A stretch of 60,573 bases of DNA from a virus: positions 1 through 60,573 of the IMG/VR virus record IMGVR_UViG_3300042889_001694, one strand, 5' to 3'. The notes under the pieces were generated by a model, which did not search any database, was not told the origin of the DNA, and saw nothing but the letters and a program-made list of their open reading frames with translations. Made by a program: the position numbers and the translations under genes. Positions 1,909-58,451 of the stretch are shown in pieces. How positions within the stretch are numbered: the stretch's first letter is position 1; every line of letters starts with the position of its first letter.

Positions 1909-2428
1909 TGAAGCACTAGAATACCAGGACCTTGTGGGCATGATGAAACCACGTGTGCATGTGGACGAATTTGCCAGCAAGATGGGCGATGATGATGACA
2001 TCATTGTTATCAGTTTCTTTGTACGTAGCAAAGAAGCCGCACGTGATCTAGTGAACTGGTTTGAAAAAGGCTACGATTTTGTAATGGATGCTGACCAAAG
2101 CCCAGGCGAAATCCGTCCAGGACGATATCTAGTGTATGTGGAACTGCGCAGACGTAGTTCAGCAGGTACCTGGGTGGCTGACATGATTGACGATCTTGGC
2201 ACACTGACTGAATACGAGCCCAAGGACTGGACTCTAAGTTACGAGCGCAAGGACTATCCGTTTAGCAAAGAAGAATTTGATCGATTGGTACCATTGAGTC
2301 CAAAAGACTATCGCAAGGTAAAAGAAACAGGACTAAACGAAATGCGTATTGCGTCGGGTCTTGAGCCTGTGCAAATCTACAAGCCCACAAAAGACCTACG
2401 TCAACTACAGGCCGCAGCCGGCATCTAA
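1880..2428 (+). CDS. Conserved phage protein of unknown function
   Basis: A 182-residue soluble protein resembling a family widespread in T4-like marine phages whose role is unknown to me. Key segments are VDEFASKMGDDDDIIVISFFV, a helix RSKEAARDLVNWFEKGYDFV, and SPGEIRPGRYLVYVELRRRS, which suggest an alpha/beta fold. The start at 1880 gives MNNHQPQLL; an in-frame ATG at 1862 is possible. The gene overlaps the end of the upstream gene by 29 bases, and its last 24 bases overlap the end of the convergent SGNH gene at 2405. Translational coupling with the 1345 gene is likely. Confidence 0.72.
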   Translation: MNNHQPQLLNEALEYQDLVGMMKPRVHVDEFASKMGDDDDIIVISFFVRSKEAARDLVNWFEKGYDFVMDADQSPGEIRPGRYLVYVELRRRSSAGTWVADMIDDLGTLTEYEPKDWTLSYERKDYPFSKEEFDRLVPLSPKDYRKVKETGLNEMRIASGLEPVQIYKPTKDLRQLQAAAGI

Positions 2429-3082
2429 TGCCAGTCGTGCGCGGGGCAGTATAACGTCAACTGCTGCCTGGTGCGCTGCATCTAACGGGTGAGATCCTGC
2501 ACCAATCTCAAATCCATGATATCTAGCCCAGTCTAAAAAGGTCCGCCCTTCAAAGTCGCACAAGTACGGTTGTACTAGTTGTTGAAGAAATCTAACACTG
2601 TGTGGGGCATGCCAGGTGGTATTCATCATGAGTGAATCCATGTAGGTCATGACAAATGGTTGTTTGTGTTGGGTAAGAATATCCACCGCAGATTTAACAC
2701 ACATCAAACTGGTGAATTTATCATGCAGATCTGACTGCACATGCTGGTAGTAGGCCCGGGCTGTTGTGCTTGAGTCACTTGGTACAATTGTGCCCCATTC
2801 GTCAGCCATGCAGGTGGGAGTGGGATTTCCATAGTCAAACCGATCAATCCAGGTCCACCCAATCACGTACAGTGTGGGTATGCCCAGACTCAGTTCTGAT
2901 ATCACACGTTCAAGTATGCGCAGATTGCCCGCTCCACCTTGACCGCGTCCATGATGTTCCAAGCCCAGTTGTTGCGACAACAATGCTGGCCAGGTCAGTT
3001 CACTGGGTTTGCCACCGGGTCCGGCATCATCAGAAAGTTCTGTTCCAAATATAAAACTGCAACCAAAACTCTTGAGTATCAT
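2405..3082 (-). CDS. SGNH/GDSL hydrolase-like protein
   Basis: A 225-residue protein with SGNH hydrolase features: block I GCSFIFG with the candidate nucleophile Ser9 near the N-terminus, a GQGGAGN segment (block II/III-like) around residue 50, and a C-terminal SHPLDAAH with Asp-x-x-His spacing typical of the catalytic pair. SGNH enzymes hydrolyse esters, often acetyl groups on sugars; the substrate is unknown. Its ATG overlaps the stop of the upstream leftward methyltransferase gene (ATGA, 3079-3082), so the two are probably translationally coupled. It is one of at least five SGNH-like proteins in this window. Confidence 0.72.
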   Translation of the reverse strand: MILKSFGCSFIFGTELSDDAGPGGKPSELTWPALLSQQLGLEHHGRGQGGAGNLRILERVISELSLGIPTLYVIGWTWIDRFDYGNPTPTCMADEWGTIVPSDSSTTARAYYQHVQSDLHDKFTSLMCVKSAVDILTQHKQPFVMTYMDSLMMNTTWHAPHSVRFLQQLVQPYLCDFEGRTFLDWARYHGFEIGAGSHPLDAAHQAAVDVILPRARLALDAGCGL

Positions 3083-3810
3083 TTGATATTTTTTGTGTAC
3101 ACAAAATACAACCGATCATTGGCATCACGCTTGAATGTGTTAAGCACAAGATTGTATTTTTCAGCAAACTCTTTGACCACTTCAAATGTCCAAGGAAAAA
3201 TATCCACATAAGGACCTGTTTTGTGTGTGATACCAGGGTTGGCCCGCAGATAGAATTTGCCACCAGGAGTCAACAGATCCACGCACTTGGCAAAACGACC
3301 TTCAATCTCGTCCCGGCTGTTGAAATTGATACTGCCCAACGCAATGATCACATCATGATTGCCCACATAGTCCAAGACATCAACCATGTAATCGGCACAG
3401 TTGTTGTAGGGATCAATGCCCACTAAGTTATCAATTCGTCCCTTGAAGGGGTGATAACCACAGCCCACATCCAACACGCTCTTGGGATTCAGTGCATTGA
3501 TCTCATCAACCAGTTGCCAGCCAGTGTAGTCGTAGTCGCCGGTGCGTGGTTTCCAAATTTCGCCAAAAAAGCGATTGATATAACGCTCACTCAAGTCACT
3601 GGTGATTTCTTGCAACGTACCGCGATATTCGCAGGGCAAGCTCAGTTCAACTTCTACTGCGTCTTTGAATTTGCGATAACGAACCGGCGTCCAAGGCAGT
3701 TGATCAACCACTGTGGTGGCTGTTAAGTTCTCTCGAACATGTTGATATTTGGGCAGGGCAAAAGCCTGATTTAAATTTTTCAACAATAGGTTAAAAATTT
3801 TGGTATTCAT
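3079..3810 (-). CDS. Class I SAM-dependent methyltransferase
   Basis: A 243-residue protein with a clear class I methyltransferase core: motif I VLDVGCGYHPF for S-adenosylmethionine binding, an acidic residue after the next strand (VGIDPYNN), a motif IV-like strand (DVIIALGSINF), and a post-core LTPGGKFYLRANPG segment. The substrate is not evident. I place the start at the ATG at 3810 (MNTKIFNLL); the frame could begin at 3864, but the extra 18 residues are unconvincing. It is first in a leftward pair with the SGNH gene at 2405. The 113-base gap to the divergent gene at 3924 is AT-rich and holds no clear promoter. Confidence 0.82.
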   Translation of the reverse strand: MNTKIFNLLLKNLNQAFALPKYQHVRENLTATTVVDQLPWTPVRYRKFKDAVEVELSLPCEYRGTLQEITSDLSERYINRFFGEIWKPRTGDYDYTGWQLVDEINALNPKSVLDVGCGYHPFKGRIDNLVGIDPYNNCADYMVDVLDYVGNHDVIIALGSINFNSRDEIEGRFAKCVDLLTPGGKFYLRANPGITHKTGPYVDIFPWTFEVVKEFAEKYNLVLNTFKRDANDRLYFVYTKNIK

Positions 3811-3923
3811 AAAGTTTTTTCTTTGGGATAAATAAAAATACAAGCACATTAGATTTTTTATCAACTCTGACAGAAAATTTTATCGGTGTCTTGTTTTAAG
3901 TTAAGTATATTTAAGGAGAAAGC

Positions 3924-4622
3924 ATGCTTACGTCAAAAAAATTCGTCGCCAAACTCATTGCCGACAACCAAGCTCTGTTTCAAGCCAGCCAGCACAATGT
4001 CAAGGCCTACTTTGATTCAAAGCCAGCACAACAAGAGTTAGTTGACCACTTTATTGGTCGCATGGTTAACGAGCGCATGAACATGGTTGAAATCAGCCGT
4101 GCCATTGCTGAAATGCCAGCCGACGCAGATCCAGTTGAACTGCAACTGTTGGCTCAACAAGCACATGATGAAGCTGTGCACTTCCGTTTGGTCAAGGAAG
4201 TTATTGAGCACATTCAAGGTGCCCCAGTTGATGTTGAAGCTGCCATTGCTGCCGAAGCTGCCAAGCCCACTGCCAAAGGTGCTGGTTTGTTGGCCAAGTA
4301 TGGCGCTGAAACAGATCCTGCTGCTCTGGCAGCATATCAATTGGTTGCTGAAGGCCGTGCTGAAGCTGTGTGGAATACCATGGCTGACTGCATTGAGGAT
4401 GCCTTTATTTCCGGCGCTTATCGCAAGATTGCCCGAGACGAAGGCTTCCACAGCAACATCGGTGCTCGTGCACTGGAGAAGTTTGTGGGCACAGCACAAG
4501 AGCAAGCTCGTATTGAGACTCTTGTGACAGCCATGCGTAAAGACTTGTATGAAATTTCATGTCGCAACACAGTTGCAGCTGAATCGGGTCGTGAACTTGT
4601 GGCCAACGCTTACGGGTGGTAA
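3924..4622 (+). CDS. Ferritin-like diiron protein
   Basis: A 232-residue, almost wholly alpha-helical protein resembling ferritin-like diiron proteins. Candidate metal ligands lie in HDEAVHF (E-x-x-H) around residue 79, in EGRAEAVW around residue 145, and in a second E-x-x-H, DEGFHS, around residue 174, consistent with a four-helix bundle carrying two E-x-x-H motifs. Such proteins act as oxygenases, oxidases or iron stores; which applies here is unknown. AAGGAG lies seven bases before the ATG, a strong ribosome-binding site. It heads a rightward run of tightly spaced genes to about 10.9 kb and is followed after three bases by a glutamine amidotransferase gene. Confidence 0.65.
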   Translation: MLTSKKFVAKLIADNQALFQASQHNVKAYFDSKPAQQELVDHFIGRMVNERMNMVEISRAIAEMPADADPVELQLLAQQAHDEAVHFRLVKEVIEHIQGAPVDVEAAIAAEAAKPTAKGAGLLAKYGAETDPAALAAYQLVAEGRAEAVWNTMADCIEDAFISGAYRKIARDEGFHSNIGARALEKFVGTAQEQARIETLVTAMRKDLYEISCRNTVAAESGRELVANAYGW

Positions 4623-4625
4623 TTT

Positions 4626-5189
4626 ATGATTATAGGACTCAGTCAACGAATCCTATTCCATAAAGGAAGAGCGTATGATTCTATCGAGCACGGGTGGTAT
4701 CAGTTCTTGGCAGGGCATACGCTCTTTTATCTTCCCAACACGTTGAGTCTAGATTTTGATTCAATTGCGGATCACCTGGATTCATTTGTGATAACCGGCG
4801 GTGATGACAGCGCACTGCGTAGAACTGTTGAAACCAAGTTGGCCTCGGCCATGATGCAACGCAATAAACCTGTAGTGGGCATTTGTCATGGGGCATTTTT
4901 GCTTTCAGACTTATTGGGTGGCACCATTGAGGATGTGGATGCACACAGCGACACTGAACACCCGGTGTTTTACTTTGGTGAAATCAAAGGCGTCAACAGC
5001 TTTCATAATTTGGGCATTGCAAAATTGCACAGTACAGGTACTGTGTTGTGCACAGACGAACTGGGACATGTGGAAGCCTGGATCGATGGCAAGCTGGCTG
5101 GAGTAGTCTGGCATCCTGAACGCATGGACAATCCCTGGTTACCAGACGAAATACACAATTTATTATTTGAAGGAAAAAATGAAAGATAA
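4626..5189 (+). CDS. Class I glutamine amidotransferase-like protein
   Basis: A 187-residue protein with the class I glutamine amidotransferase (GATase) fold. The nucleophile elbow is GICHGAFLL, with Cys about residue 87; the catalytic His and Glu are in VWHPERMD near residue 160; and FVITGGDD is the usual strand before the oxyanion region. These enzymes release ammonia from glutamine for a partner synthase, or act as gamma-glutamyl hydrolases like PuuD. No synthase partner is adjacent, so the reaction is open. The gene overlaps the next by 11 bases. Confidence 0.8.
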   Translation: MIIGLSQRILFHKGRAYDSIEHGWYQFLAGHTLFYLPNTLSLDFDSIADHLDSFVITGGDDSALRRTVETKLASAMMQRNKPVVGICHGAFLLSDLLGGTIEDVDAHSDTEHPVFYFGEIKGVNSFHNLGIAKLHSTGTVLCTDELGHVEAWIDGKLAGVVWHPERMDNPWLPDEIHNLLFEGKNER

Positions 5190-5841
5190 ACATCTATTGA
5201 TCATTACAGGACCACAAGGTTCGGGTAATCATTTCTTTAGTCGTATTCTAAGCCAGCACCCCGAAGTAGAGGGCTGGGAAGATCTCAAAAAAGAATACTG
5301 GATTCCCAGCGATCAGGAACCATTTGCAGAGTACTGGGCCAATCCAGAATTGTTGACTGCTGACAAGTTTGCCAATAGTGACTACTTCTTGGCCAATGTC
5401 AGTTGTCCAGTTTATATTAACGGTGTACGACAGTTCAGCAAGATCCGTGAAGTAGCTGATCGTGCAGCCGAACTTGGAGTGCGTGTGACAATTGGCATTA
5501 TTGTAAGAGACAAAAACATCAACATGGTGCAACATCAGCGACTGATGAACGGATACACATCCTTGCCCGAAGCACAAGAGTACTATTACAACAACATATT
5601 GACCAGCGATCATGCTGTGCATTTTGTTGATCACGAGGCATTTTTTTTGCACGGCAAACATTATCTAAAATGGTTGAGCCGGATACTGGACTTTCCCATT
5701 GCCTGGGACAGCGACAGCATATATGATTTTATTGAAAAAGATGCCAATCACAAATATGTGTCGCCAATTGAATCACACTGGCTAGATGAACACATTCGCG
5801 CAGGGCGCAAACCATTCAAAGAAAGAGGAATTGAAAAATGA
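5179..5841 (+). CDS. Sulfotransferase-like P-loop protein
   Basis: A 220-residue protein with an N-terminal phosphate-binding loop GPQGSGNHFF (residues about 9-18), like the PAPS 5'-phosphosulfate loop of sulfotransferases, and a later strand with arginine (GIIVRDKNINMV) in the place of the 3'-phosphate-binding segment. It is one of several such proteins here. The start is the ATG at 5179, preceded by GAAGGAA; an upstream in-frame TTG at 5167 is less likely. It overlaps both neighbours (11 and 4 bases), so it sits inside an operon. Donor and acceptor are unknown; a generic P-loop kinase is the alternative. Confidence 0.6.
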   Translation: MKDKHLLIITGPQGSGNHFFSRILSQHPEVEGWEDLKKEYWIPSDQEPFAEYWANPELLTADKFANSDYFLANVSCPVYINGVRQFSKIREVADRAAELGVRVTIGIIVRDKNINMVQHQRLMNGYTSLPEAQEYYYNNILTSDHAVHFVDHEAFFLHGKHYLKWLSRILDFPIAWDSDSIYDFIEKDANHKYVSPIESHWLDEHIRAGRKPFKERGIEK

Positions 5842-6818
5842 AAAAATTATTAGCAACACTATTGATATTAGCCAGCATGGCTGCTCATGCCTGGGAACCC
5901 ACAAAGCCTGTTACAGTTGTTGTGGGCAACACACCCGGTGCTGGAAATGAAATTGCCTTTAGAAAACTGGCAGAAATTGTGCAAAGGTCCAACCCTAAAT
6001 TCACCTATGTTGTACAGAATATTCCCGGTGCCGACTCAGTCATTGCCAACAACCGAGTGTTGGAAGCACCCAATGATGGCTACACCATCAACTTGCCCAG
6101 TCACATGAGTTCGTATGTTACCAACGACATCTGGCAAAAAGACATTAAAAAATACAACTATGACTCATTTGTTGATGTGTTGACCATGGGCAAGAGTCCA
6201 CTGGTGTTGGTGGCACACCCTAGCAGTGCAGTCAATACTCCGCAGGATTTTGTCAAGCTAATCTCCACAACTACTAAACCTATTAATGTGGGCACAGGCG
6301 GTGGCGCACATCGGACTGCTTATGAATTTTTAATGGAAAAAGGTCGTGGTAATCGTGACTTGGTTAAACCTGTCAGATTCAATGGTCCACTACCAACTGT
6401 CACAAGTGTGGCTTCATTTCAGCCGGGACAAGCTGGAACTGAGTTTGGTATCATGCCCATTGCGGTGGCCAAACCCCTGGTGGATGCTGGCAAAGTCAAG
6501 CCCATTGGATTCACGGGCACACAACGCATGCCGCAGTTTCCCAATGTTCCGTTGCTGCGTGATGTGGCCCCAGGCATCAATGTGTATGCTGCCTGGAGTA
6601 TTCAGTTGCCACCCAATACCAATCGAGAAATTGTGGCATGGTATCAACGGAACTTTAGTGCCGCAGTGCGCAGTCGAGAATATGCAGAATGGCGGGAAAG
6701 CCAAGTGGTATTTTATGTAGAAGATGAATTAAATCCAGCAGGACTAAAGCGTCACATGGATGAATTACGTGCCACATTTATTCCTGTGTTGAGTAAAATT
6801 GATTTAAATAAAGAATGA
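5838..6818 (+). CDS. Bug/TctC-family periplasmic solute-binding protein
   Basis: A 326-residue protein with an N-terminal signal peptide (Lys-Lys, hydrophobic core, likely cut after AHA near residue 18) followed by a Bug/TctC receptor fold. Recognisable family features are KPVTVVVGNTPGAGNE, a stretch on unbound ligands (VQNIPGADSVIANN), NVGTGGGAH, and KPIGFTGTQRMPQFPNVPLL. In bacteria these bind small carboxylates in the periplasm for tripartite tricarboxylate transport. No membrane components (TctA, TctB) are in the window, so it would have to use the host transporter or act as a decoy or sensor. ATGA overlaps on both sides place it in an operon between two sulfotransferase-like genes. Very unusual cargo for a phage and probably acquired from a host. 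Confidence 0.88.
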   Translation: MKKLLATLLILASMAAHAWEPTKPVTVVVGNTPGAGNEIAFRKLAEIVQRSNPKFTYVVQNIPGADSVIANNRVLEAPNDGYTINLPSHMSSYVTNDIWQKDIKKYNYDSFVDVLTMGKSPLVLVAHPSSAVNTPQDFVKLISTTTKPINVGTGGGAHRTAYEFLMEKGRGNRDLVKPVRFNGPLPTVTSVASFQPGQAGTEFGIMPIAVAKPLVDAGKVKPIGFTGTQRMPQFPNVPLLRDVAPGINVYAAWSIQLPPNTNREIVAWYQRNFSAAVRSREYAEWRESQVVFYVEDELNPAGLKRHMDELRATFIPVLSKIDLNKE

Positions 6819-7450
6819 AATATATCTTTGTAGCCGGCGCACCGGGCTCAAAATGGAGCAGTGTGGTCAAGAATATCTATCACAGTGCCAGCATTGATCG
6901 TAGTGATTATCGCGACGAGTGGACTTACTATCATGATGCTGGCGGTGACATGGACCTGATGCACATGGGTGCGTACTTTGATCCTGGCATGACATGTGCT
7001 CTGCCAGAGTATTTTAATTCAATGACGAAATTTCAAGCAGAGCGTATTTTTGACCAGCCATTTGATTCAGCAGCCACTGGTGTGCGAATTATCAAAAGTC
7101 ATGTGTTTAGCTACAAAGAAAACATTGAGTTTCTCAAACGCAATTGGCCTGAGTGCCCTATTGTGTTGGTGTACAGGTCCGACGATGCTTGTCTAGGATG
7201 GTGGGTCAAATGCGGACATTTTGATATCACTTATCCCAGCTATCATATCTATTATAAAGATTTAAAAACCATGGCCAGCATCATCAAGCGGCAAAATCAA
7301 GGTATTCAAGACACCATATGGGACCACAAATCCACAAGGAAACAGCCTGTAACCAATCTTGAATTGTGTGATGCACTTGGTATACAATGGCCACACGGGG
7401 ATTATCAGCAGAACTACAGCAAAAACGACATAGAGGTAACAGTGATATGA
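6815..7450 (+). CDS. Sulfotransferase-like protein
   Basis: A 211-residue protein with a P-loop-like start (FVAGAPGSKWSSVV) matching the 5'-phosphosulfate loop of PAPS-dependent sulfotransferases, and a strand-arginine-serine-type segment IVLVYRSDDACLGWW matching the 3'-phosphate-binding region. RIIKSHVF resembles the catalytic strand, with His, found before that region. Acceptor unknown. It overlaps the Bug gene and the following oxygenase gene by four bases each. An APS kinase domain 1.4 kb downstream could supply PAPS; that link is inference. Confidence 0.7.
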   Translation: MKYIFVAGAPGSKWSSVVKNIYHSASIDRSDYRDEWTYYHDAGGDMDLMHMGAYFDPGMTCALPEYFNSMTKFQAERIFDQPFDSAATGVRIIKSHVFSYKENIEFLKRNWPECPIVLVYRSDDACLGWWVKCGHFDITYPSYHIYYKDLKTMASIIKRQNQGIQDTIWDHKSTRKQPVTNLELCDALGIQWPHGDYQQNYSKNDIEVTVI

Positions 7451-8109
7451 ACGAAACGAGACACAGCAGTTGGGACAAATTAAAAGAAAAAAGCACATAT
7501 CATTTTGATTCTACTAGGATAGATACCAAAAAAGATGTGATCATCTCACTGGGGCATATCAAGCCAGACTGGGATGATGAGTTGCAACAGATACTGGCAG
7601 AGTCAAAACCTGCCAACTGGGAAACACGTGGCTTCAAAGGCGAGGGTGTGTTTGTGCCCAAACCCGAACTTGAAGACGAAGAATATGATCTAGAGCGTGT
7701 GGGCATTGATCCCAAGGTGATCATTACAGATCTTGCCTGGCGACTGGGCCCCAAGTTACAAGCCATTAGTGATGCGTTTGCACTGGAAGATTGCATGGAA
7801 CGTATTCATGTGCAACGACCCGGACAGTTGTGGCACCGGCACATTGACAAATTGTACAAGTGGTTTCCCGAAGACCCTTCACGTGTGATGCGTGTGTTTA
7901 TTCAGCTCACAGCATGGCAACCAGGGCAGTTCTGGGAATACGGCAACCATCACTGGAATCAGTGGCAAGCTGGATCTGTCACAACATTTGACTGGCAGAA
8001 CTTGCCACACTCAACTGCCAACGCCGGACATCATGCCAGAGTGACTCTACAACTGACCGGCATTGTGACTGCTCAAACACAAGAATTCTTGGCCCACTTG
8101 CCTAGATGA
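7447..8109 (+). CDS. 2OG-Fe(II) oxygenase-like protein
   Basis: A 220-residue protein resembling small 2-oxoglutarate/Fe(II) dioxygenases of phages. The metal-binding H-x-D lies in WHRHIDKL near residue 135, followed by a beta-strand VFIQLTAWQPGQFWEYG, then WQAGSVTTFDWQNLPHSTAN carrying the distal His and a C-terminal Arg strand (HARVTLQLTG). The arrangement parallels the protein at 54340, with which it appears paralogous. Start ATG at 7447 overlaps the previous stop. Substrate unknown; prolyl or aspartyl hydroxylation is typical of the superfamily. Confidence 0.65.
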   Translation: MNETRHSSWDKLKEKSTYHFDSTRIDTKKDVIISLGHIKPDWDDELQQILAESKPANWETRGFKGEGVFVPKPELEDEEYDLERVGIDPKVIITDLAWRLGPKLQAISDAFALEDCMERIHVQRPGQLWHRHIDKLYKWFPEDPSRVMRVFIQLTAWQPGQFWEYGNHHWNQWQAGSVTTFDWQNLPHSTANAGHHARVTLQLTGIVTAQTQEFLAHLPR

Positions 8110-8168
8110 ACAAACGTCAATTACAACACCAAGCGGCTGTGATTGCCACAGCAAAAGATCAATTTTAA
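8106..8168 (+). CDS. Possible 20-residue peptide
   Basis: A 20-codon frame (MNKRQLQHQAAV...) whose ATG overlaps the preceding stop as ATGA, the coupling pattern used throughout this region. It fills the gap before the APS kinase gene at 8185. It is too short to judge by composition and could be chance. Confidence 0.25.
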   Translation: MNKRQLQHQAAVIATAKDQF

Positions 8169-8184
8169 ATTAAATGGAGTCATT

Positions 8185-8979
8185 ATGCCTAAACGTATAT
8201 TAATCATGGGCCTGCCCGGAGCAGGAAAAACTTATCTAGCACAACACATTCTAGAACATTTAGAAAATGAAAAGAAACGTGTGCGTTGGCTCAATGCTGA
8301 TGATGTTCGTAAAAAATACAATGACTGGGATTTCAGTCATGAAGGACGCATACGTCAAAGCCTGCGTATGCGTGAACTAGCAGACTCATTAACTGATGTT
8401 GATTATGTCATCTGCGACTTTGTTGCACCGCTGGTGGAAATGCGCAACAATTTCAAAGCAGATTGGACTGTGTGGGTTGATACAATTGACAAAGGTCGTT
8501 ACGAAGATACTAACAAAGCATTTGTTCCACCTGACCATTATGATTTTAGAATAACTGAACAAAATGCAGAAAAATGGGGCGAGTTTGTGGCTGCACACAT
8601 ATTAGATAACAGGCGTAGACCTATCTTTGCCTGGCAAAAAGAAACTGTACAAATGCTAGGTCGGTGGCAGCCATGGCATGCAGGACATCGTGCATTGTTT
8701 GAACGTGCCATTGCCAAAACAGGACAGGTAGTTATCCAGATTAGAGATTGTCAGGGCTGGCAAGGCAGCAATCCATTTGCCATTGATCAAGTCAAGAACT
8801 TTATCAAGCGCGATTTGGACATGCTGTATCAAGGTCAGTACGAAATTCAAATTGTTCCAAATATTGTGAACATCACATATGGACGGGATGTGGGGTACAA
8901 AATTGAACAAGAAGTATTTGACGATTCTGTTCACTCTATTAGTGCAACAAAGATTCGCAAAGAACTAGGGCTTAAATGA
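8185..8979 (+). CDS. APS kinase-like / nucleotidyltransferase fusion
   Basis: A 264-residue two-domain protein. Residues 1-160 resemble adenylylsulfate kinase: P-loop GLPGAGKT, then WLNADDVRKKYNDWDFS and an arginine-rich helix (GRIRQSLRMREL) at the usual APS-binding positions. Residues 160-264 are an HxGH-type nucleotidyltransferase: GRWQPWHAGHRALF near the domain start and ISATKIRKEL at its end, as in NMN or cytidylyl transferases. APS kinase makes PAPS, the donor for sulfotransferases, several of which are encoded nearby. The second domain could be an ATP-sulfurylase analogue or an unrelated adenylyltransferase. Start ATG 8185 has GGAG upstream; a longer in-frame start at 8143 is unlikely. 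Confidence 0.8.
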   Translation: MPKRILIMGLPGAGKTYLAQHILEHLENEKKRVRWLNADDVRKKYNDWDFSHEGRIRQSLRMRELADSLTDVDYVICDFVAPLVEMRNNFKADWTVWVDTIDKGRYEDTNKAFVPPDHYDFRITEQNAEKWGEFVAAHILDNRRRPIFAWQKETVQMLGRWQPWHAGHRALFERAIAKTGQVVIQIRDCQGWQGSNPFAIDQVKNFIKRDLDMLYQGQYEIQIVPNIVNITYGRDVGYKIEQEVFDDSVHSISATKIRKELGLK

Positions 8980-9185
8980 TTGAATCAACCCGACGTAGCG
9001 TCTTCAAGACTGTTAGTTGGAGAATAACTGGTAGCAGTGCAACATTTGCTATTAGCTATGCTGTGCTGGGTGATTTTTCAATAAGCGGCACCATAGCCAT
9101 AATACAGCTGACTTTCAATACTCTATTGTATTATGTGCATGAGCGACTGTGGAACTTGATCAAATGGGGCCGTGATGCTGGATGA
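8976..9185 (+). CDS. DUF2061 small membrane protein
   Basis: A 69-residue membrane protein with family features SVFKTVSWRITGSSAT at the start, a hydrophobic middle (two likely membrane helices) and LYYVHERLWNLIKWGRD at the end. This matches DUF2061, a family of unknown function that in bacteria is often found next to sulfate-activation genes. Here it follows and overlaps by four bases the APS kinase fusion gene, repeating that association. Confidence 0.82.
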   Translation: MIESTRRSVFKTVSWRITGSSATFAISYAVLGDFSISGTIAIIQLTFNTLLYYVHERLWNLIKWGRDAG

Positions 9186-10041
9186 TCTTGTGTTGAGCAC
9201 TAGAGCCAATCAACATTGGCTGTACAATGCAATAGATTCCCCGGATCGCTGTCGTGATCGCGGGGCATTTTTCAAATATTCATGGCCAGTTAGCTACAAC
9301 TACAACAGTCGTGGGTTTAGAGACACAGAATGGCCCACAAGCCTGAATGAATTAAAACAGGCCATATGGTGTGTGGGCGACAGTTTCACCACAGGGCTGG
9401 GCAGTGCTTTGGACCGTACCTGGGTGCACATGTTGCAACAAGCCACAGGACGCAGATGTATCAACATCAGCCTAGAGGGTGCCAGCAACGGATGGATTGC
9501 TCGCAGAGCCAGACAAATCTTGCAAGAAATACAGCCACAACACATGGTTATTCTTTGGAGTTACATGCACCGTAGAGAATCGCCCAATGCTGAATTGTCT
9601 GATGAACAACGTCGAATACCGGCGTATATTCTAGATGAAGCAGTGGATCATGTAAATTACTTTGAGCAGTGTTTGCGTGTACTGGGCACAGCACACTCCA
9701 CAACAGTGATATCTGCTGTTATACCCAATGACTTTGCTGATGATCTAGAACCTGCTGACCAGCTGTGGCAAGTGCTGGCCGATGCCAGCTGGGGCTCATG
9801 TCCCACCACAGCAGCTGAATTTGATGCATTGCCGCAGAGCATTCACAGTGACTTGAAAAAGCACAAGGCACATGATTATTTAAGACTGTGCATACGCATG
9901 ACAGAACTGCATGATAATTTACAACCATTTATTGGCACAATTCCGCAACAGGATCAGTCGCGTGATGGTTACCATTTTGATAAACTAACCAGTGAGTGGT
10001 TTGTTGATAAACTCATACCTTGCTTAAATGATACTAAATGA
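9175..10041 (+). CDS. SGNH hydrolase-like protein (tandem copy 1)
   Basis: A 288-residue SGNH-like protein. After an N-terminal segment WPVSYNYNSRGFRDTEWP shared with the next gene, block I is WCVGDSFTTGLGS with the likely nucleophile Ser, LEGASNGWIARR carries the Gly/Asn blocks, and DGYHFDKL supplies a C-terminal Asp/His pair. It is a tandem paralog of the protein at 10028. I use the ATG at 9175 rather than the adjacent GTG at 9172. It overlaps the DUF2061 gene by 11 bases and the next copy by 14. Confidence 0.72.
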   Translation: MLDDLVLSTRANQHWLYNAIDSPDRCRDRGAFFKYSWPVSYNYNSRGFRDTEWPTSLNELKQAIWCVGDSFTTGLGSALDRTWVHMLQQATGRRCINISLEGASNGWIARRARQILQEIQPQHMVILWSYMHRRESPNAELSDEQRRIPAYILDEAVDHVNYFEQCLRVLGTAHSTTVISAVIPNDFADDLEPADQLWQVLADASWGSCPTTAAEFDALPQSIHSDLKKHKAHDYLRLCIRMTELHDNLQPFIGTIPQQDQSRDGYHFDKLTSEWFVDKLIPCLNDTK

Positions 10042-10885
10042 TTTTGTAATTACTGGACGAGCATCACAGTGTTTTGACCAAGCAGGCGGATTAGACTCAC
10101 GTGAACAATGTCATGATCGTGTGCACTGGGATAATTATCCCTGGTCAGTCAGCTACAACTACAACAGTCGCGGATTCAGGGACGCAGAATGGCCGGAAAA
10201 TCTTAAAGATGCTGTGTGGTGCATCGGCGACAGTCAAACTGTGGGTTTTGCCGGGCCATTAGAACATTCTTGGCCCTGGCTATTACAGCAACAGTTGGGA
10301 CGTAGATGTATCAATGTTGCCATGGATGGCGGCAGTAACAACTGGATTGCCCGGCGCACCGTGGATATATTACGCGAAGTTGCGCCAGGGCACATTGTGA
10401 TACACTGGAGTTATTGTCATCGTCGTGAGTCCAGCATAGATCTTGCGCGAGACCAGGCCTGGAAACTGTTTTATAAAAATGTACGTTTACAAACCTGGCC
10501 CGAGTGTGACTGCTATGCGGACTTTGACAGTTTGCCACCGAGTGTTCAACTGGAAGTGTTGCAGCTTCATGGATGGGAACGTTATTGCAATCAGTTGGAT
10601 GAATATCGAAAGATCTATAATATTCGATGCACCGTGGCAGAAGATGATGAGAATTTCCGTCAGTGTGTGAATCTAGTGCAGTCACATGCTGGCAACACTC
10701 GCATCATACACAGTGTGATTCCAGGCTTTGCACCCAGTGACAGCACAGCATCCGCAGTACTAGCACAATGTCAATTTGCAGTGCCCGAATTACCACAACT
10801 GGACTGGGCACGTGACTCGTCGCATTATGATATCAAAACTGCACAGTCCCTGGTCAATCGTTTGCTGCCGTTAATAGCGGAGTAA
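10028..10885 (+). CDS. SGNH hydrolase-like protein (tandem copy 2)
   Basis: A 285-residue paralog of the preceding protein. Shared blocks are WSVSYNYNSRGFRDAEWP, WCIGDSQTVGFAG (block I with Ser), MDGGSNNWIARR, and a C-terminal SSHYDIKTA with Asp/His. The pair points to local duplication followed by divergence. Its 3' end overlaps by 32 bases the end of the leftward gene at 10854, so the two transcripts are antisense at their ends. Substrate unknown; sugar O-acetyl esters are typical for the fold. Confidence 0.72.
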   Translation: MILNDFVITGRASQCFDQAGGLDSREQCHDRVHWDNYPWSVSYNYNSRGFRDAEWPENLKDAVWCIGDSQTVGFAGPLEHSWPWLLQQQLGRRCINVAMDGGSNNWIARRTVDILREVAPGHIVIHWSYCHRRESSIDLARDQAWKLFYKNVRLQTWPECDCYADFDSLPPSVQLEVLQLHGWERYCNQLDEYRKIYNIRCTVAEDDENFRQCVNLVQSHAGNTRIIHSVIPGFAPSDSTASAVLAQCQFAVPELPQLDWARDSSHYDIKTAQSLVNRLLPLIAE

Positions 10886-33648: not shown

Positions 33649-34950
33649 ATGACTACACCTTTAAACGACTATAAAATCGCCGACATTTCTCTGGCTCCCT
33701 GGGGACACAAAGAAATTGCAATTGCCGAGCACGAAATGCCTGGCTTACACGCTGTATTAGAACAATACAAAAACAAACAACCACTAAAGGGTGCACGTAT
33801 TGTGGGCAGTTTGCACATGACAATTCAAACTGCTGTACTGATCAAGGTGCTGGTGGCCTTGGGTGCAAGTGTACGCTGGAGCTCGTGTAATATCTTTAGC
33901 ACACAAGATCAGGCTGCCGCTGCCATTGCCGATCTGGGTATTCCTGTATTTGCCTGGAAGGGCGAGACGGAAGAGGAATACTGGTGGTGCATTGAACAAA
34001 CTGTGCGTGGACCAGACGGTTGGACACCCAACATGATACTTGATGATGGGCACGACTTAACTGGCTACATTCACGACAAACACCCTGACCTGATTCCCGG
34101 TATCAAGGGTGTTACAGAAGAAACCACAACAGGTATCCACAAATTATTGGAACGCATTGCCGCTGGTACACTGCGGTTGCCTGCTATCAACGTAAACGAC
34201 TCGGTGACCAAGACCAAGTTTGACAACTTGTATGGTTGCCGTGAAAGCCTAGTTGATGCTATCAAACGTGCCACTGATGTTATGATTGCCGGCAAAGTTG
34301 CTGTGGTGGCCGGTTACGGCGATGTGGGCAAAGGTTCGGCACAGGCCTTGCGAGCACTCAGCGCACAAGTTTGGGTTACAGAAGTTGATCCTATTTGTGC
34401 ACTGCAAGCTGCCATGGAAGGTTACCGAGTGGTCACAATGGATTATGCCAAGGACAAAGCTGATATTTTTGTTACCGCCACAGGCAACATTGGTGTTATC
34501 ACACGTGAGCACATGTTGTGCATGAAGGAAAATGCCATTGTTTGCAACATTGGCCACTTTGACAGCGAAATTGATATTGCTGGTATTCAGGATGCCAAGT
34601 GGGACGAAATCAAACCCTTGGTAGATCATGTTACACTTGTTAACGGTCGCAAGATTGTTGTACTAGCCAAAGGACGCTTGGTGAACTTGGGTTGTGGCAC
34701 AGGTCACCCCAGCTTTGTTATGAGCAACAGCTTTACCAATCAGGTGTTGGCTCAGATCGAGATGTTCAACAACACCGATCAATATGAAACTGGAAAAATT
34801 TATTTGTTGCCCAAGCATCTTGATGAGCAAGTGGCACGACTTCACTTGGAAAAGGTTGGTGCAATGTTGACCACATTGGACCAGCGCCAAGCAGACTATA
34901 TTGGAGTAGATGTTGCCGGACCGTTCAAACCCGACACTTATCGCTATTGA
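33649..34950 (+). CDS. ahcY: S-adenosyl-L-homocysteine hydrolase
   Basis: A 433-residue S-adenosylhomocysteine hydrolase, normal length for the family. It breaks S-adenosylhomocysteine into adenosine and homocysteine, relieving product inhibition of methyltransferases. Recognisable parts: [39 protein letters not shown], the substrate-site [10 protein letters not shown], the NAD loop [14 protein letters not shown] (about residue 220), [20 protein letters not shown] and the C-terminal PDTYRY. It has its own sigma70 promoter without leader. Uncommon in phages; here it stands next to replication genes and in a genome with several methyltransferases. Confidence 0.96.
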
Positions 34951-44589: not shown

Positions 44590-45828
44590 ATGAGAAAACT
44601 ATATTACATGGGGCTTGAAAGTTACGAAGCCCGGTACACACTACAACTAACTGAATGGAATCGCCGAGTATTTGATCAGCGCGGCCTTGATGTGGTATAT
44701 GTACCAGGCACTACACTAGACAATACAAAAGCAATCAGTGTGGGGCAAGTGCTGGACGCACATGGCCGCAGTTATTTTGGCATGAGTCAAATTATGAACT
44801 TGGTTCAATTGATGAAGAATGGAGAAGTTACAAATGAAGATGTTATCTACTTTGAAGACATGTTTCAACCCGGCATTGAATCCCTTCCTTACATATTTGA
44901 TCAGATCCCTGCTAGTCAGCGTCCCCGTGTTTTTGTTAGGTGTCTTGCTCAGTCCATTGATCCTGATGACTTCGTACATGTATGGGGTATGGCAAAATGG
45001 ATGGGACTTTACGAACAAATGGTTAATGAGTTCGTGGATGGGGTTCTCGCAACAAACGAAGAGATGGTTGCTCATATGCGCATTGCTGGATGGCGTGCTC
45101 CTATATATAATATTAGTGGCCTAGCATTTGGCAAGGAAGAAGTGTTAGAGCGTGTTGGTGGTGCAGGAAACATCCGACCATTTGATCAACGAACAATGCG
45201 TGTGGGATTTGCCGCAAGATTTGATCAAGAGAAACAACCTGATTTTTACATGGACTTGATTGAGATGTACCTTGCCCAAGGGTATCAGACACAAATAGAG
45301 TTTGCTATCTTCCAGGGCGGACCACTACGTAGTAATAATCCCAAGTATGTCAAACGTGCTAGGCAGTTAGAAGCTCAGGGCAAACTCAAAATCTACGAAA
45401 ACCTAAAGAAAAATGATTACTATAATCTGCTTAATGATACTCGTGTGCTGTTTAATTGTGCCCTTCAAGATTGGGTTAGTAACACAGTTAGTGAAGCGGA
45501 TACATTAGGATGTAATGTACTGTATCCTGCATATCGTAGTTTCCCCGAGACTTTTGCAAACGATCCCAACCGACTCTACATTCCTTGGAGCATAGATGAT
45601 GCATGCACCAAACTTGACAACTTGCTAGCAGATCCTCATCACAATATGGGTCTTATTAGTGACTGGAACAACGGCACAATTGACCGTACAATCGACATAA
45701 TGGAAACTGCTGGCACCATAGCCGAAGCTGGGCCTGGATGCAAGGCTACTAAATGGTATCGTGGTGGAAATAGATATCGCGACAGCGTTAGTGAAGCTAA
45801 GTATCATGTGAAAAGGATTGAAACTTGA
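44590..45828 (+). CDS. GT-B glycosyltransferase-like protein
   Basis: A 412-residue protein with features of a GT-B glycosyltransferase: MRVGFAARFDQEKQPDFYMDL (start of the C-terminal Rossmann domain), LKIYENLKKNDYYNLLNDTRVLFNCALQDWVSN and SEADTLGCNVLYPAYRSFPE, the usual donor-site Glu region. The N-terminal half has EDVIYFEDMFQPGIE. The donor nucleotide sugar is unknown. It is the first gene of a run to 53333 with overlaps at nearly every junction. Start ATG 44590 follows AAGGTACAACA. Confidence 0.72.
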   Translation: MRKLYYMGLESYEARYTLQLTEWNRRVFDQRGLDVVYVPGTTLDNTKAISVGQVLDAHGRSYFGMSQIMNLVQLMKNGEVTNEDVIYFEDMFQPGIESLPYIFDQIPASQRPRVFVRCLAQSIDPDDFVHVWGMAKWMGLYEQMVNEFVDGVLATNEEMVAHMRIAGWRAPIYNISGLAFGKEEVLERVGGAGNIRPFDQRTMRVGFAARFDQEKQPDFYMDLIEMYLAQGYQTQIEFAIFQGGPLRSNNPKYVKRARQLEAQGKLKIYENLKKNDYYNLLNDTRVLFNCALQDWVSNTVSEADTLGCNVLYPAYRSFPETFANDPNRLYIPWSIDDACTKLDNLLADPHHNMGLISDWNNGTIDRTIDIMETAGTIAEAGPGCKATKWYRGGNRYRDSVSEAKYHVKRIET

Positions 45829-46772
45829 AAATAGTTTATGTTACTGGATGTTTGGGATTTATTGGTGGTCACGTGACAAGGCAATGTCTTGAACGTGGCT
45901 GGCGTGTTATGGGCGTGGACAAAAAAACTTATGCTAGTAATTCAGATCTATTAGATGAGTTTGGTGCAAATCCAAACTTTAAATTTTTACAACAAGACAT
46001 CAATGATCTTGAATTACTTTATGATTGCGATTATGTGATTAACACAGCTGCCGAATCTCATGTGGACAACAGCATCATGAGTAGCGATGTGTTTTTGAGA
46101 AGCAATATCAATGGGGTGCATCATCTACTTGAGTTGATTCGAGCAATGCCGCCTGTGCGCAGACCAATTTTTTTGCATTTTAGCACAGACGAAGTTTATG
46201 GAGATATTGTTGACGGTAGTCATACCGAGCAGGATATCTTAACACCAAGCAATCCGTACAGTGCCAGCAAGGCCGCAGCCGACATGTTGGTTTTGGCCTG
46301 GGCACGTACTCACAACATTCGCTATGTAATTGTTAGACCCACAAACAATTATGGTATTGGGCAATATGTGGAAAAACTAATTCCAAAATCAATTAAATTT
46401 TTGTCGTTGAATCGCAAAATTGATTTGCATGATAATGGAAACCCAAGTCGAGTATGGTTGCATGCCGGCGACACTGCCCGTGCTGTAATACACATCATTG
46501 ACCAAGGTGTCACTGGTGAGATCTACAACATAAGCGGCAATGCTGAAATGCCAAATCGAGAAGTGATAAAAAAAATATTGTCTTACTATTTTGATGTCGA
46601 TCATGACCATGACTGGGAATCTTTTGTTACTCCTAGTTCTAGACAAGGTCAGGACGTAAGATATGCCATCAATGATAGCAAATTAAAACAATTGGGTTGG
46701 ACTGCAACTGCTGACTTTGATCAAGAATTAGCCCAAGTAGTTAAACACTACAGGAATAATTTTGTATGGTAA
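45825..46772 (+). CDS. RmlB-like nucleotide-sugar 4,6-dehydratase
   Basis: A 315-residue extended short-chain dehydrogenase resembling dTDP-glucose 4,6-dehydratase. Visible: NAD motif TGCLGFIGGHV, AAESHVDNSIMSSDVFLRSN, the catalytic FSTDEVYGDI (Thr-Asp-Glu of dehydratases), PYSASKAAADMLV (Tyr-x-x-x-Lys) and TNNYGIGQYVEKLIPKSI. It would form a 4-keto-6-deoxy sugar, the substrate type for the RfbH-like enzyme downstream. Starts with TTG overlapping the previous stop. Confidence 0.88.
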   Translation: MKIVYVTGCLGFIGGHVTRQCLERGWRVMGVDKKTYASNSDLLDEFGANPNFKFLQQDINDLELLYDCDYVINTAAESHVDNSIMSSDVFLRSNINGVHHLLELIRAMPPVRRPIFLHFSTDEVYGDIVDGSHTEQDILTPSNPYSASKAAADMLVLAWARTHNIRYVIVRPTNNYGIGQYVEKLIPKSIKFLSLNRKIDLHDNGNPSRVWLHAGDTARAVIHIIDQGVTGEIYNISGNAEMPNREVIKKILSYYFDVDHDHDWESFVTPSSRQGQDVRYAINDSKLKQLGWTATADFDQELAQVVKHYRNNFVW

Positions 46773-47491
46773 AAAATTATTTGGTATGTTCAGTGCGTCC
46801 TATATCAGAAAATTGGATGGGCAATGATAGTTCACAATTATATTTAGACTATCAAGAAATGTATCGTTTAAGACTAGCCAGTTTTCAACATTTTGTAAAA
46901 GAACCATTTGAAACAATACTGTGGACGGATCCTGCCACCAACGGCGATACTTGTGCATATCAAAATTGGTTAGATATTAAAGATTTGTGGCACCGAGAAC
47001 CCTGCAATATATTTTGGGCAGGTGCCGACACACTTATGATACGGCCTACAGAATTGTTTTCTGACAGATTCCCCGAATACCGATTGTTTAATTATACTGA
47101 TCCAAAAAGTCATAATGAGTGTATACACCATTTCAACGATGATATACAATATTATCCACATACCATGTTGGATCATGTATGGAAACTTGGAGAAGACTGG
47201 TTGGAACAAAGAGAAACTCACCCAGACCGTAATTGGGGATTTGATCAGTTAAGGCATAATGCTATGTTTTGGAACCAAGACATTGATGAGTCTGATCGAT
47301 TACATCCAGAGATGGCCTATCAAGCAATGCGTTTAAGATCCTTGGATCAAAATGCAATAACCTGGCACAATGAATGGAACCGTATATCCATAAATCAGGC
47401 ACACATATTGCATTTTCACGGCAGTCGCGGTAGTCAGGAAGTAATAAACATTATGAGAAAAATTTCTAATCAACTTGGGATTAAATTATGA
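46766..47491 (+). CDS. Glycosyltransferase-like protein
   Basis: A 241-residue protein with a GT-A-like pattern: an N-terminal strand NYLVCSVRPISENW, FETILWTDPA, and CNIFWAGADTLMIRPTELF, which resembles the D-x-D-like metal site of family 8 or 32 enzymes. C-terminal HILHFHGSRGSQEV carries the His seen in those families. Overlaps its neighbours by seven and four bases. Acceptor unknown. Confidence 0.65.
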   Translation: MVKNYLVCSVRPISENWMGNDSSQLYLDYQEMYRLRLASFQHFVKEPFETILWTDPATNGDTCAYQNWLDIKDLWHREPCNIFWAGADTLMIRPTELFSDRFPEYRLFNYTDPKSHNECIHHFNDDIQYYPHTMLDHVWKLGEDWLEQRETHPDRNWGFDQLRHNAMFWNQDIDESDRLHPEMAYQAMRLRSLDQNAITWHNEWNRISINQAHILHFHGSRGSQEVINIMRKISNQLGIKL

Positions 47492-48807
47492 AACAAATAT
47501 TAGAAGATATTAAAAAATACATTGATGCTAAACACGCTGCCAAGACTTGGGTAGCCGGCAAGGACTTTGTAAACTATGCAGGTCCGCATTTTGACTCAGA
47601 TGAATATGTAGCAGCCGCGGAAGCATTGTTAAACGGTTGGCTGGTAATGGGCAATAAAAGTCTACGATTTGAACAAAAATTTCCAAAAGAATTTGGTAAA
47701 ACTCGTGGAGTGTTGACCAATTCGGGCAGTAGTGCTAACTTGCTTATGATGACAGCTATGAAGTCCAAGCGTGGACACAACTTTCCACCCGGCACCAAGG
47801 TATTGATGCCTATTGCTGGATTCCCAACAACACTTAATCCTACTATTCAAAACGGCTTCACGCCTGTGTTTTGTGATATTGAAATTGATACACTAAACAT
47901 CGATCTAGATCACGCAGAACGTTTGCTCGCGGCAGATCCAGAAATTAAAATTATTACGTTTGCTCATGTACTAGGCAATCCGCCTAACATGGATCGAGTA
48001 ATGGAACTGGTAAACCAGTACAATCTAATCTTATTGGAAGATTGTTGTGATGGACTTGGCACAACTTATGATGGCAAGCCGTTGGGTAGCTTTGGAGAAA
48101 TGGCCAGCTGTAGTTTTTATCCAGCACACCACATGACCATGGGCGAAGGCGGTTTTGTTGCCATGAACGATCCACAGCAAGAGATTATTGTACGCAGTTT
48201 GCGTGAATGGGGACGTGGTTGCTATTGTGTAGGACCCGAGGCCAACAAGTTAAAATGTGGCACTTGTGGCAAGCGATTCAATGAATGGATTCCAGAAATG
48301 CCTGATCAGATTTTTGATCACAAGTATGTATACGACGAAATTGGTTACAATCTAAAGCCAATTGAACTACAAGCGGCAATGGGACTAGAGCAACTTAAAA
48401 AATTGCCAGAGATACATTCCTTGCGTCAACGCAACTACGATCTACTGTTTGCTATCTATAAAAAGTATGAAGAATTTTTTCACTTGCCACGTGCTAGAGA
48501 TAAAGCCGATGTTAGTTGGTTTGCGTTTCCATTAACTATCCGTGAAGGTGCCCCGTTTACCCGCATGGACATTGTTGATTATTTGGAAGAAAATTTAATT
48601 CAAACACGTCCCTACTTTGCTGGTAATATCATGTTGCAACCTGCATACAGTCATTTAATGAATCCTGCAGATGCACGTGACAACTATCCTGTGGCCACAT
48701 TTACTATGAAAAATACCTACTTCCATGGATGCAGTCCAGTTATCACTCCAGAGCAGATTGCCTACATTGGAGAAAAGGTTGACGGCTTTATGAGTTTGTA
48801 CCTATGA
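47488..48807 (+). CDS. RfbH-like PMP-dependent 3-dehydrase
   Basis: A 439-residue protein resembling CDP-4-keto-6-deoxyglucose-3-dehydrase (RfbH, E1). The PLP-lysine is replaced by histidine in SFYPAHHMTMGEGG (His215 region), the hallmark of the PMP-dependent dehydrases E1 and ColD. Cysteines for an iron-sulfur centre are present around CYCVGPEANKLKCGTCGKRF (245, 247, 257, 260) and Cys208. E1 removes the 3-hydroxyl of a 4-keto-6-deoxy sugar, giving 3,6-dideoxy sugars. The partner reductase E3 is not in the window, so a host reductase may serve. Confidence 0.88.
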   Translation: MKQILEDIKKYIDAKHAAKTWVAGKDFVNYAGPHFDSDEYVAAAEALLNGWLVMGNKSLRFEQKFPKEFGKTRGVLTNSGSSANLLMMTAMKSKRGHNFPPGTKVLMPIAGFPTTLNPTIQNGFTPVFCDIEIDTLNIDLDHAERLLAADPEIKIITFAHVLGNPPNMDRVMELVNQYNLILLEDCCDGLGTTYDGKPLGSFGEMASCSFYPAHHMTMGEGGFVAMNDPQQEIIVRSLREWGRGCYCVGPEANKLKCGTCGKRFNEWIPEMPDQIFDHKYVYDEIGYNLKPIELQAAMGLEQLKKLPEIHSLRQRNYDLLFAIYKKYEEFFHLPRARDKADVSWFAFPLTIREGAPFTRMDIVDYLEENLIQTRPYFAGNIMLQPAYSHLMNPADARDNYPVATFTMKNTYFHGCSPVITPEQIAYIGEKVDGFMSLYL

Positions 48808-58076: not shown

Positions 58077-58451
58077 ATGACTGATCTAGAACAGGCGCAA
58101 GCAAACAAGATTGCACCATGGGATGATTATGTTGTTGAGCATAGTGACTTTCATGTGGCTGTGTTTCGTGATCGTTATCCTGTAACATCTGGGCACTTGT
58201 TGTTCGTTCCAAGATACAACACACCCAGCGTTGTGCTTGATGCATTTGATTCTGCTTATCGCCATGGTTGCACAATGGTAGCCAACAACGAATGTGACGC
58301 ATTCAACATTGGATTTAACTGTGGTGTTGAAGCTGGACAAACAGTTATGTATCCGCACATACACCTGATGCCTAGACGCAAAGGCGATGTTGAAGATCCT
58401 GTGGGCGGCGTTCGGAATACCATACCGGGCAAGGGCAATTATAAAAAATGA
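58077..58451 (+). CDS. HIT-family nucleotide hydrolase
   Basis: A 124-residue HIT protein. The histidine triad is YPHIHLMPRRKGD near residue 95, and SGHLLFVPRYNTPSVV is the usual upstream strand. HIT proteins hydrolyse or transfer nucleotidyl groups. GGAG lies before the ATG. It stands between folE and the radical SAM gene, overlapping the latter by four bases. Confidence 0.85.
   Translation: MTDLEQAQANKIAPWDDYVVEHSDFHVAVFRDRYPVTSGHLLFVPRYNTPSVVLDAFDSAYRHGCTMVANNECDAFNIGFNCGVEAGQTVMYPHIHLMPRRKGDVEDPVGGVRNTIPGKGNYKK

Follow-up and report, generated by a model that had tools for sequence, protein, structure and literature searches.

What would a virus do with a secreted solute-binding protein? 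The question is raised by one gene at 5838-6818 in a viral stretch of 60,573 nucleotides (IMG/VR record IMGVR_UViG_3300042889_001694, positions 1 to 60,573; hereafter the window). An earlier note, made from the letters alone, had read this gene as an intact periplasmic binding protein of the Bug/TctC type that carries a signal peptide and is embedded in a phage operon by four-base overlaps, and that description is confirmed. The open reading frame begins with ATG, encodes 326 aa with zero internal stops and overlaps both neighbors by an ATGA, the upstream frame ending at 5841 and the downstream frame starting at 6815. The protein matches Pfam PF03401 (TctC) above the curated threshold (E 3.6e-19; 69.8 bits vs a cut-off of 27), its nearest solved structures by sequence are TctC/Bug-type throughout, and the alignment of the phage-family profile to TTT binding proteins of solved structure starts at residue 20 and runs almost to the end. 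An AlphaFold2 model computed from 53 phage homologues (mean pLDDT 93.8) has the two-domain fold of type II periplasmic binding proteins. In a Foldseek search of the PDB with this model, the first 17 matches are TctC/Bug-type proteins, including TphC, TBP, MatC with malate and BugD, and the TM-score by query length reaches 0.82-0.83 against closed, ligand-bound forms (MatC-malate 0.83). The hydrophobic N-terminus, MKKLLATLLILASMAAHA, read by eye as a signal peptide, closes on A-x-A and is followed by W; both A18 and W19 are invariant across 53 TctC homologues. The record holds one TctC copy, with the following parts.

5838..6818, plus strand: TctC/Bug-type periplasmic solute-binding protein, 326 aa (Pfam PF03401, AF2, Foldseek)
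5838..5891, plus strand: signal peptide, residues 1-18, A-x-A then W19 (read from sequence)
5925..5951, plus strand: first pincer loop, residues 30-38 GNTPGAGNE, equivalent to the TTT motif P-F-x-A-G-G-x-x-D (TphC alignments)
6096..6134, plus strand: residues 87-99 PSHMSSYVTNDIW, where conservation within the phage family peaks, in the ligand-cleft region (TphC alignment)
6297..6311, plus strand: residues 154-158 GGGAH, equivalent to the TphC G153-H157 ligand loop (TphC alignment)
6378..6389, plus strand: residues 181-184 FNGP, second pincer loop (Y-K/R-G in bacteria; alignment)

The gene is encoded in a genuine viral genome and is conserved there. The window contains phage genes for PhoH, virion-protein homologues, an endolysin, a Clp-like protease and a family-B DNA polymerase, and IMG/VR scans with family alignments, the search of other phage contigs that the earlier note had proposed, located the same TctC gene on 101 distinct viral contigs from 81 metagenomes. 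These records are metagenomic and mostly fragments; many measure 320-365 kb, and the longest 524 kb. A chimeric contig, which the earlier note had named as a refutation of its reading, is excluded by the recurrence of the neighborhood across the 101 contigs. TctC is under strong purifying selection in these phages, with dN/dS of 0.04-0.09 over nine gene pairs (dS below 0.7 in six), the comparisons of the window tctC with its relatives being near saturation and indicative only. The virion proteins have relatives in jumbo phages of the RaK2, PA5oct, Atu_ph07 and Phosso types at 28-38% identity, by which the host is not fixed. A search by DNA found no close phage isolate, and a tRNA search of the window returned none. 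The sole INPHARED match, MT836965.1 (L007), is labeled “Bacteriophage sp.” but is bacterial DNA, a fragment that bears Rnf genes along with a TTT operon, and was set aside as non-phage.

The protein family had also been taken as a hint of a betaproteobacterial host, with a phylogeny against bacterial Bug proteins proposed as the route to the donor, and on this point the data did not bear the suggestion out. The phage profile scores phage members at 509-613 bits and the best bacterial protein at 112, and a scan of bacterial genomes with the phage TctC alignment found no relative. A maximum-likelihood tree was built from 28 phage and 60 bacterial proteins (quick method; bacterial set picked by similarity); in it, the phage TctC proteins stand on one side of a single branch with SH-aLRT of 100% and a length of 2.34 changes per column. 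They form one clade far from the bacterial Bugs, a pattern that fits one old acquisition, and because that clade is so remote neither donor nor host is readable from TctC; the tree names no donor. Bacterial matches were commonest in the order of the Burkholderiales genome at the center of the comparison, above the phylum at large, and the three bacteria examined carry 85-144 TctC matches per genome. Bug genes are known to be expanded in Burkholderiales (PMC5812351), so that this excess is expected and identifies neither donor nor host.

The binding site of the phage proteins is kept but departs from the bacterial pattern. It was mapped by alignment to TphC, whose PFSAGGTAD falls on residues 30-38, together with the ligand contacts reported for that protein (PMC8556258). 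The first loop of Bug proteins bears the near-ubiquitous motif P-F-x-A-G-G-x-x-D, from which some Bug proteins also deviate (PMC5812351). In phages this motif becomes G-N-x-P-G-A-G-N-E, its position and first G being retained while N, A, and E replace F, the second G and D, and in the second loop N replaces K/R. G30, G34, G36, N37, and E38 are invariant in 53 phage proteins. The last position of the first loop is E in 53/53 phage proteins vs D in 59/60 bacterial ones; position 31 holds F or Y in 57 of the 60 bacterial proteins and almost always N in the phage clade; and the TphC K177 position, K or R in 59/60 bacterial proteins, is mostly N in phages (N182). TphC T155, a ligand contact, corresponds to an invariant G156 in the phage family. 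Glycine-rich loops tend to be conserved generally. The mean entropy of the pocket loops is 0.26 vs 0.92 elsewhere, with 0/20,000 random sets as low, a test that took its positions from the TphC paper when the invariant columns were already known and that counts as support, not proof. Loss of ligand-site residues in relatives had been named as a further refutation; the residues are not lost, they are remodeled and fixed in 53 phage proteins. Judged from these alignments, the phage site is not decaying: it has been rebuilt, then held fixed. A fixed, remodeled pocket suggests a single, specific class of ligand, which need not be a carboxylate, and since the ligand-contact residues have changed (N31, E38, and N182) the ligand may be no ordinary carboxylate and the partner may be a different one.

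The genes that surround tctC recur with it, and in the window they are arranged as follows.

3079..3864, minus strand: class I SAM methyltransferase-like gene, oriented divergently from its partner tctC (homologues support a start near 3807; 76 loci)
3924..4622, plus strand: ferritin/PaaA-like protein, in a subset of relatives (15 loci; weak Pfam matches only)
4626..5189, plus strand: class I glutamine amidotransferase-like protein (Peptidase C26; 15 loci; Pfam 2.9e-13)
5167..5841, plus strand: ST1, P-loop sulfotransferase-fold protein (AF2 pLDDT 88.6; Foldseek)
6815..7450, plus strand: ST2, sulfotransferase-family protein (Pfam Sulfotransfer_3 in 27/33 homologues, best 1.1e-6)
7447..8109, plus strand: 2OG-Fe(II) oxygenase-like protein, motif H-x-D...H-x9-R (inferred from the motif; no Pfam match)
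8143..8979, plus strand: APS-kinase-like domain fused to a nucleotidyltransferase domain (Pfam APS_kinase 6.5e-12)
8976..9185, plus strand: DUF2061 small membrane protein, next gene after the APS-kinase-like one (Pfam 8.3e-20)

Among 78 TctC loci, the methyltransferase is a neighbor in 76, ST2 in 66, the 2OG-oxygenase-like gene in 62, ST1 in 59 and the APS-kinase-like gene in 45. Counted in reverse, TctC lies beside the methyltransferase in 75 of the 77 loci with room for it. Paralogues of the methyltransferase-like gene match Pfam methyltransferases. The best Foldseek matches of ST1 are PAP-bound sulfotransferases (E 9e-5, with a TM-score of only 0.4-0.5), and Pfam gave no match to the window's own ST2 copy alone; profiles of ST1 and ST2 found no credible PDB relative by sequence, ST1 being placed by structure only. 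H132, D134, H188, and R198 of the oxygenase-like protein are invariant in 32 homologues, and the PDB profile matches of the fused protein are APS kinase and NMN adenylyltransferase. From these assignments, PAPS-dependent modification by the module enzymes is a fair guess, and the fused protein may have a NadR-like role. The DUF2061 gene is retained in several relatives. Weak GDSL/SGNH-hydrolase similarity is present at 9172-10885 and at 2405-3082 (the latter by eye), with paralogues recurring in relatives. Farther along the window are an S-adenosylhomocysteine hydrolase (33649-34950; Pfam E 1.9e-129; no PHROG match) that could recycle the product of phage methyltransferases, a nucleotide-sugar epimerase with a DegT-type aminotransferase (45825-48807) as a sugar-nucleotide or glycan gene group, and, where the window ends, a 671-aa B12-binding radical SAM protein (58448-60463).

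Bacterial Bug proteins normally occur without membrane subunits (PMC5812351), and the earlier note had described the phage gene in the same way. This stands for the window, where no TctA or TctB was detected among the proteins searched and a complete TTT set (TctA and TctB with a binding protein) is lacking, but it does not extend to all of the relatives, some of which carry TctA. One of the two exceptions in the reverse count, the 138,652-base contig L265, has the methyltransferase, ST2, 2OG-oxygenase-like, ST1, and APS-kinase-like genes, and its TctC slot is occupied by a 479-aa protein and a secreted protein of 357 aa (L265:1773-4295). The 479-aa protein is a full-length TctA (Pfam E 3e-90). 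Scanning with it recovered nine contigs, L265 included, which amount to about five distinct phages as L398-L401 are near-identical. L395 and L397-L401 share the order divergent methyltransferase, TctA, binding protein, ST2, 2OG-oxygenase-like gene; L396 is cut off, L393 has ST2 before TctA, and L394 is rearranged. The TctA partner (353-357 aa) resembles TctC only weakly (hhalign probability 68% over 86 N-terminal columns; BugE E 0.0015), and the window-type TctC was absent from the seven swap records searched, most of them short fragments. From gene order and profile matches we read this as a natural swap, in which a binding protein plus channel has taken the place of an orphan binding protein, and it is the best evidence that the module slot serves TTT-type uptake.

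Further TTT components are dispersed through these genomes. Among 26 long records that carry the window-type gene, 17 have a second or third TctC (PF03401), and two (L219 and L220) encode TctA outside the window-type module (L219:5810-9222 and L220:6843-10225; Pfam E 4e-42 and 4e-38), where its neighbors are a signal-peptide protein and a protein with an SGGxDS motif. The secreted partners of these two TctA proteins gave no profile link to TctC, and TctB was recognized neither in the 26 long relatives nor in the nine swap contigs. The SGGxDS protein (about 375-396 aa), ATP-pyrophosphatase-like by a reading of its motif, adjoins the extra TctC or lies one gene from it in 13 of 14 loci (L221-L236), which are not all independent; the neighbor at the remaining locus has an adenylating-ligase-like TSGTTGEPK motif. 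Pfam returned no significant family for four SGGxDS proteins.

We consider it likely that the phage gene encodes a secreted TTT-type binding protein which raises the import of one compound via TctA/TctB. More broadly, these widespread and very large phages probably help their bacterial host to take up a small molecule during infection, because they carry a secreted TctC and some of their relatives carry TctA in the same slot. During infection, the phage TctC would be exported to the periplasm, where its two-lobed, closing cleft would catch a specific small solute. The loaded protein would then dock on a TctA/TctB pair, normally that of the host, in the manner proposed for orphan Bug proteins, with the phage supplying TctA in some relatives. 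Import of the compound would rise, either for the infected cell or for the enzymes of the same operon, to the benefit of the phage. Weighing against this uptake model is the lack of a membrane subunit in the window and in 24 of the 26 long relatives, so that function would depend on a host partner. The earlier proposal of boosted carboxylate uptake is thus retained in part: the TctA swap and the extra TctC copies support a role in uptake, but “carboxylate” is not assured given the remodeled site.

Several other readings deserve weight. The periplasmic TctC might bind its ligand without feeding a transporter, as a sensor, a buffer, a decoy or a blocker of the host binding protein; orphan Bug proteins are common, with a signaling role suggested for some (PMC5812351), the pincer loops are remodeled in all phage members and no membrane partner is encoded beside the gene. 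However, related phages hold TctA and a binding protein in the same slot, which points to transport, and several TctC copies per genome fit uptake better, leaving this alternative rather unlikely. The proximity of tctC to virion-protein homologues (1345-2428) could indicate a virion component, which we regard as very improbable as the signal peptide is retained throughout the family and virion genes are absent from the neighborhood in several relatives. Least credible of all, with next to no chance of being correct, is the reading of tctC as a passenger without function, or as bacterial DNA fused to a phage contig by misassembly: the extreme abundance of TctC in some bacteria speaks for it, but the spread over 101 contigs, the recurring neighborhood, the low dN/dS, and the invariant pocket contradict it, and there is no close bacterial relative.

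A different possibility, compatible with the uptake model, is that TctC is the supply arm of the module, delivering a precursor for the sulfotransferases, the 2OG-oxygenase-like protein and the methyltransferase, the outcome of which may be, for example, an altered cell surface or metabolite. The tight linkage in both directions of counting, the four-base overlaps and the pairing of extra TctC copies with ATP-pyrophosphatase-like proteins speak for it. Nevertheless, several of the enzyme assignments are motifs or weak folds, no common substrate is known, and linkage in a phage operon can mean shared expression time only, and we hold this possibility tentatively, as one that has the smaller share of the probability. 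In a wider and equally speculative form, the jumbo-phage lineage may run solute-capture modules for the virus's own use, in which TTT binding proteins, sometimes with TctA, are paired with modifying phage enzymes, either sulfotransferases with the APS-kinase-like protein and oxygenase or the ATP-pyrophosphatase-like proteins.

Known phage-encoded uptake proteins mainly concern phosphate, in the form of PstS. The comparison with PstS made in the earlier note holds insofar as cyanophages and soil phages also carry a periplasmic binding protein, usually without the membrane parts, which presumably increases uptake through the transporter of the host (PMC10987575, PMC6359870), and experimental validation of a phage pstS has been noted (PMC10987575). 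It fails on transporter class, as PstS serves an ABC transporter for phosphate whereas the phage TctC is of the TTT class. With bacterial TctC/Bug proteins such as TphC, BugD, MatC, and Bug27 the phage protein shares the whole predicted fold, the secretion signal, and two in-register pincer loops, but it has only about 20-30% identity to them, and a long branch sets its clade apart. For a TTT component carried by a viral contig there is a precedent in the tctA of a SUP05 viral contig reported in 2014 as a “protein domain hit only” (PMC4164917). That marine case is a single TctA domain match, whereas the TctC described here is a conserved family whose modules recur, and some members have TctA at full length. 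The literature searched, freshwater phage papers included, contained no account of phage TctC as a family, which is weak evidence given that subscription journals were thinly covered.

A conserved TTT-type binding protein, together with TctA swaps, in jumbo phages would bring a second class of transporter into viral metabolism. The clade of binding proteins is one that evolved within phages, and its pocket resembles that of none of the bacterial relatives sampled. The module enzymes hint at a use of the imported solute, and the family raises the question of which solute these viruses make the cell import.
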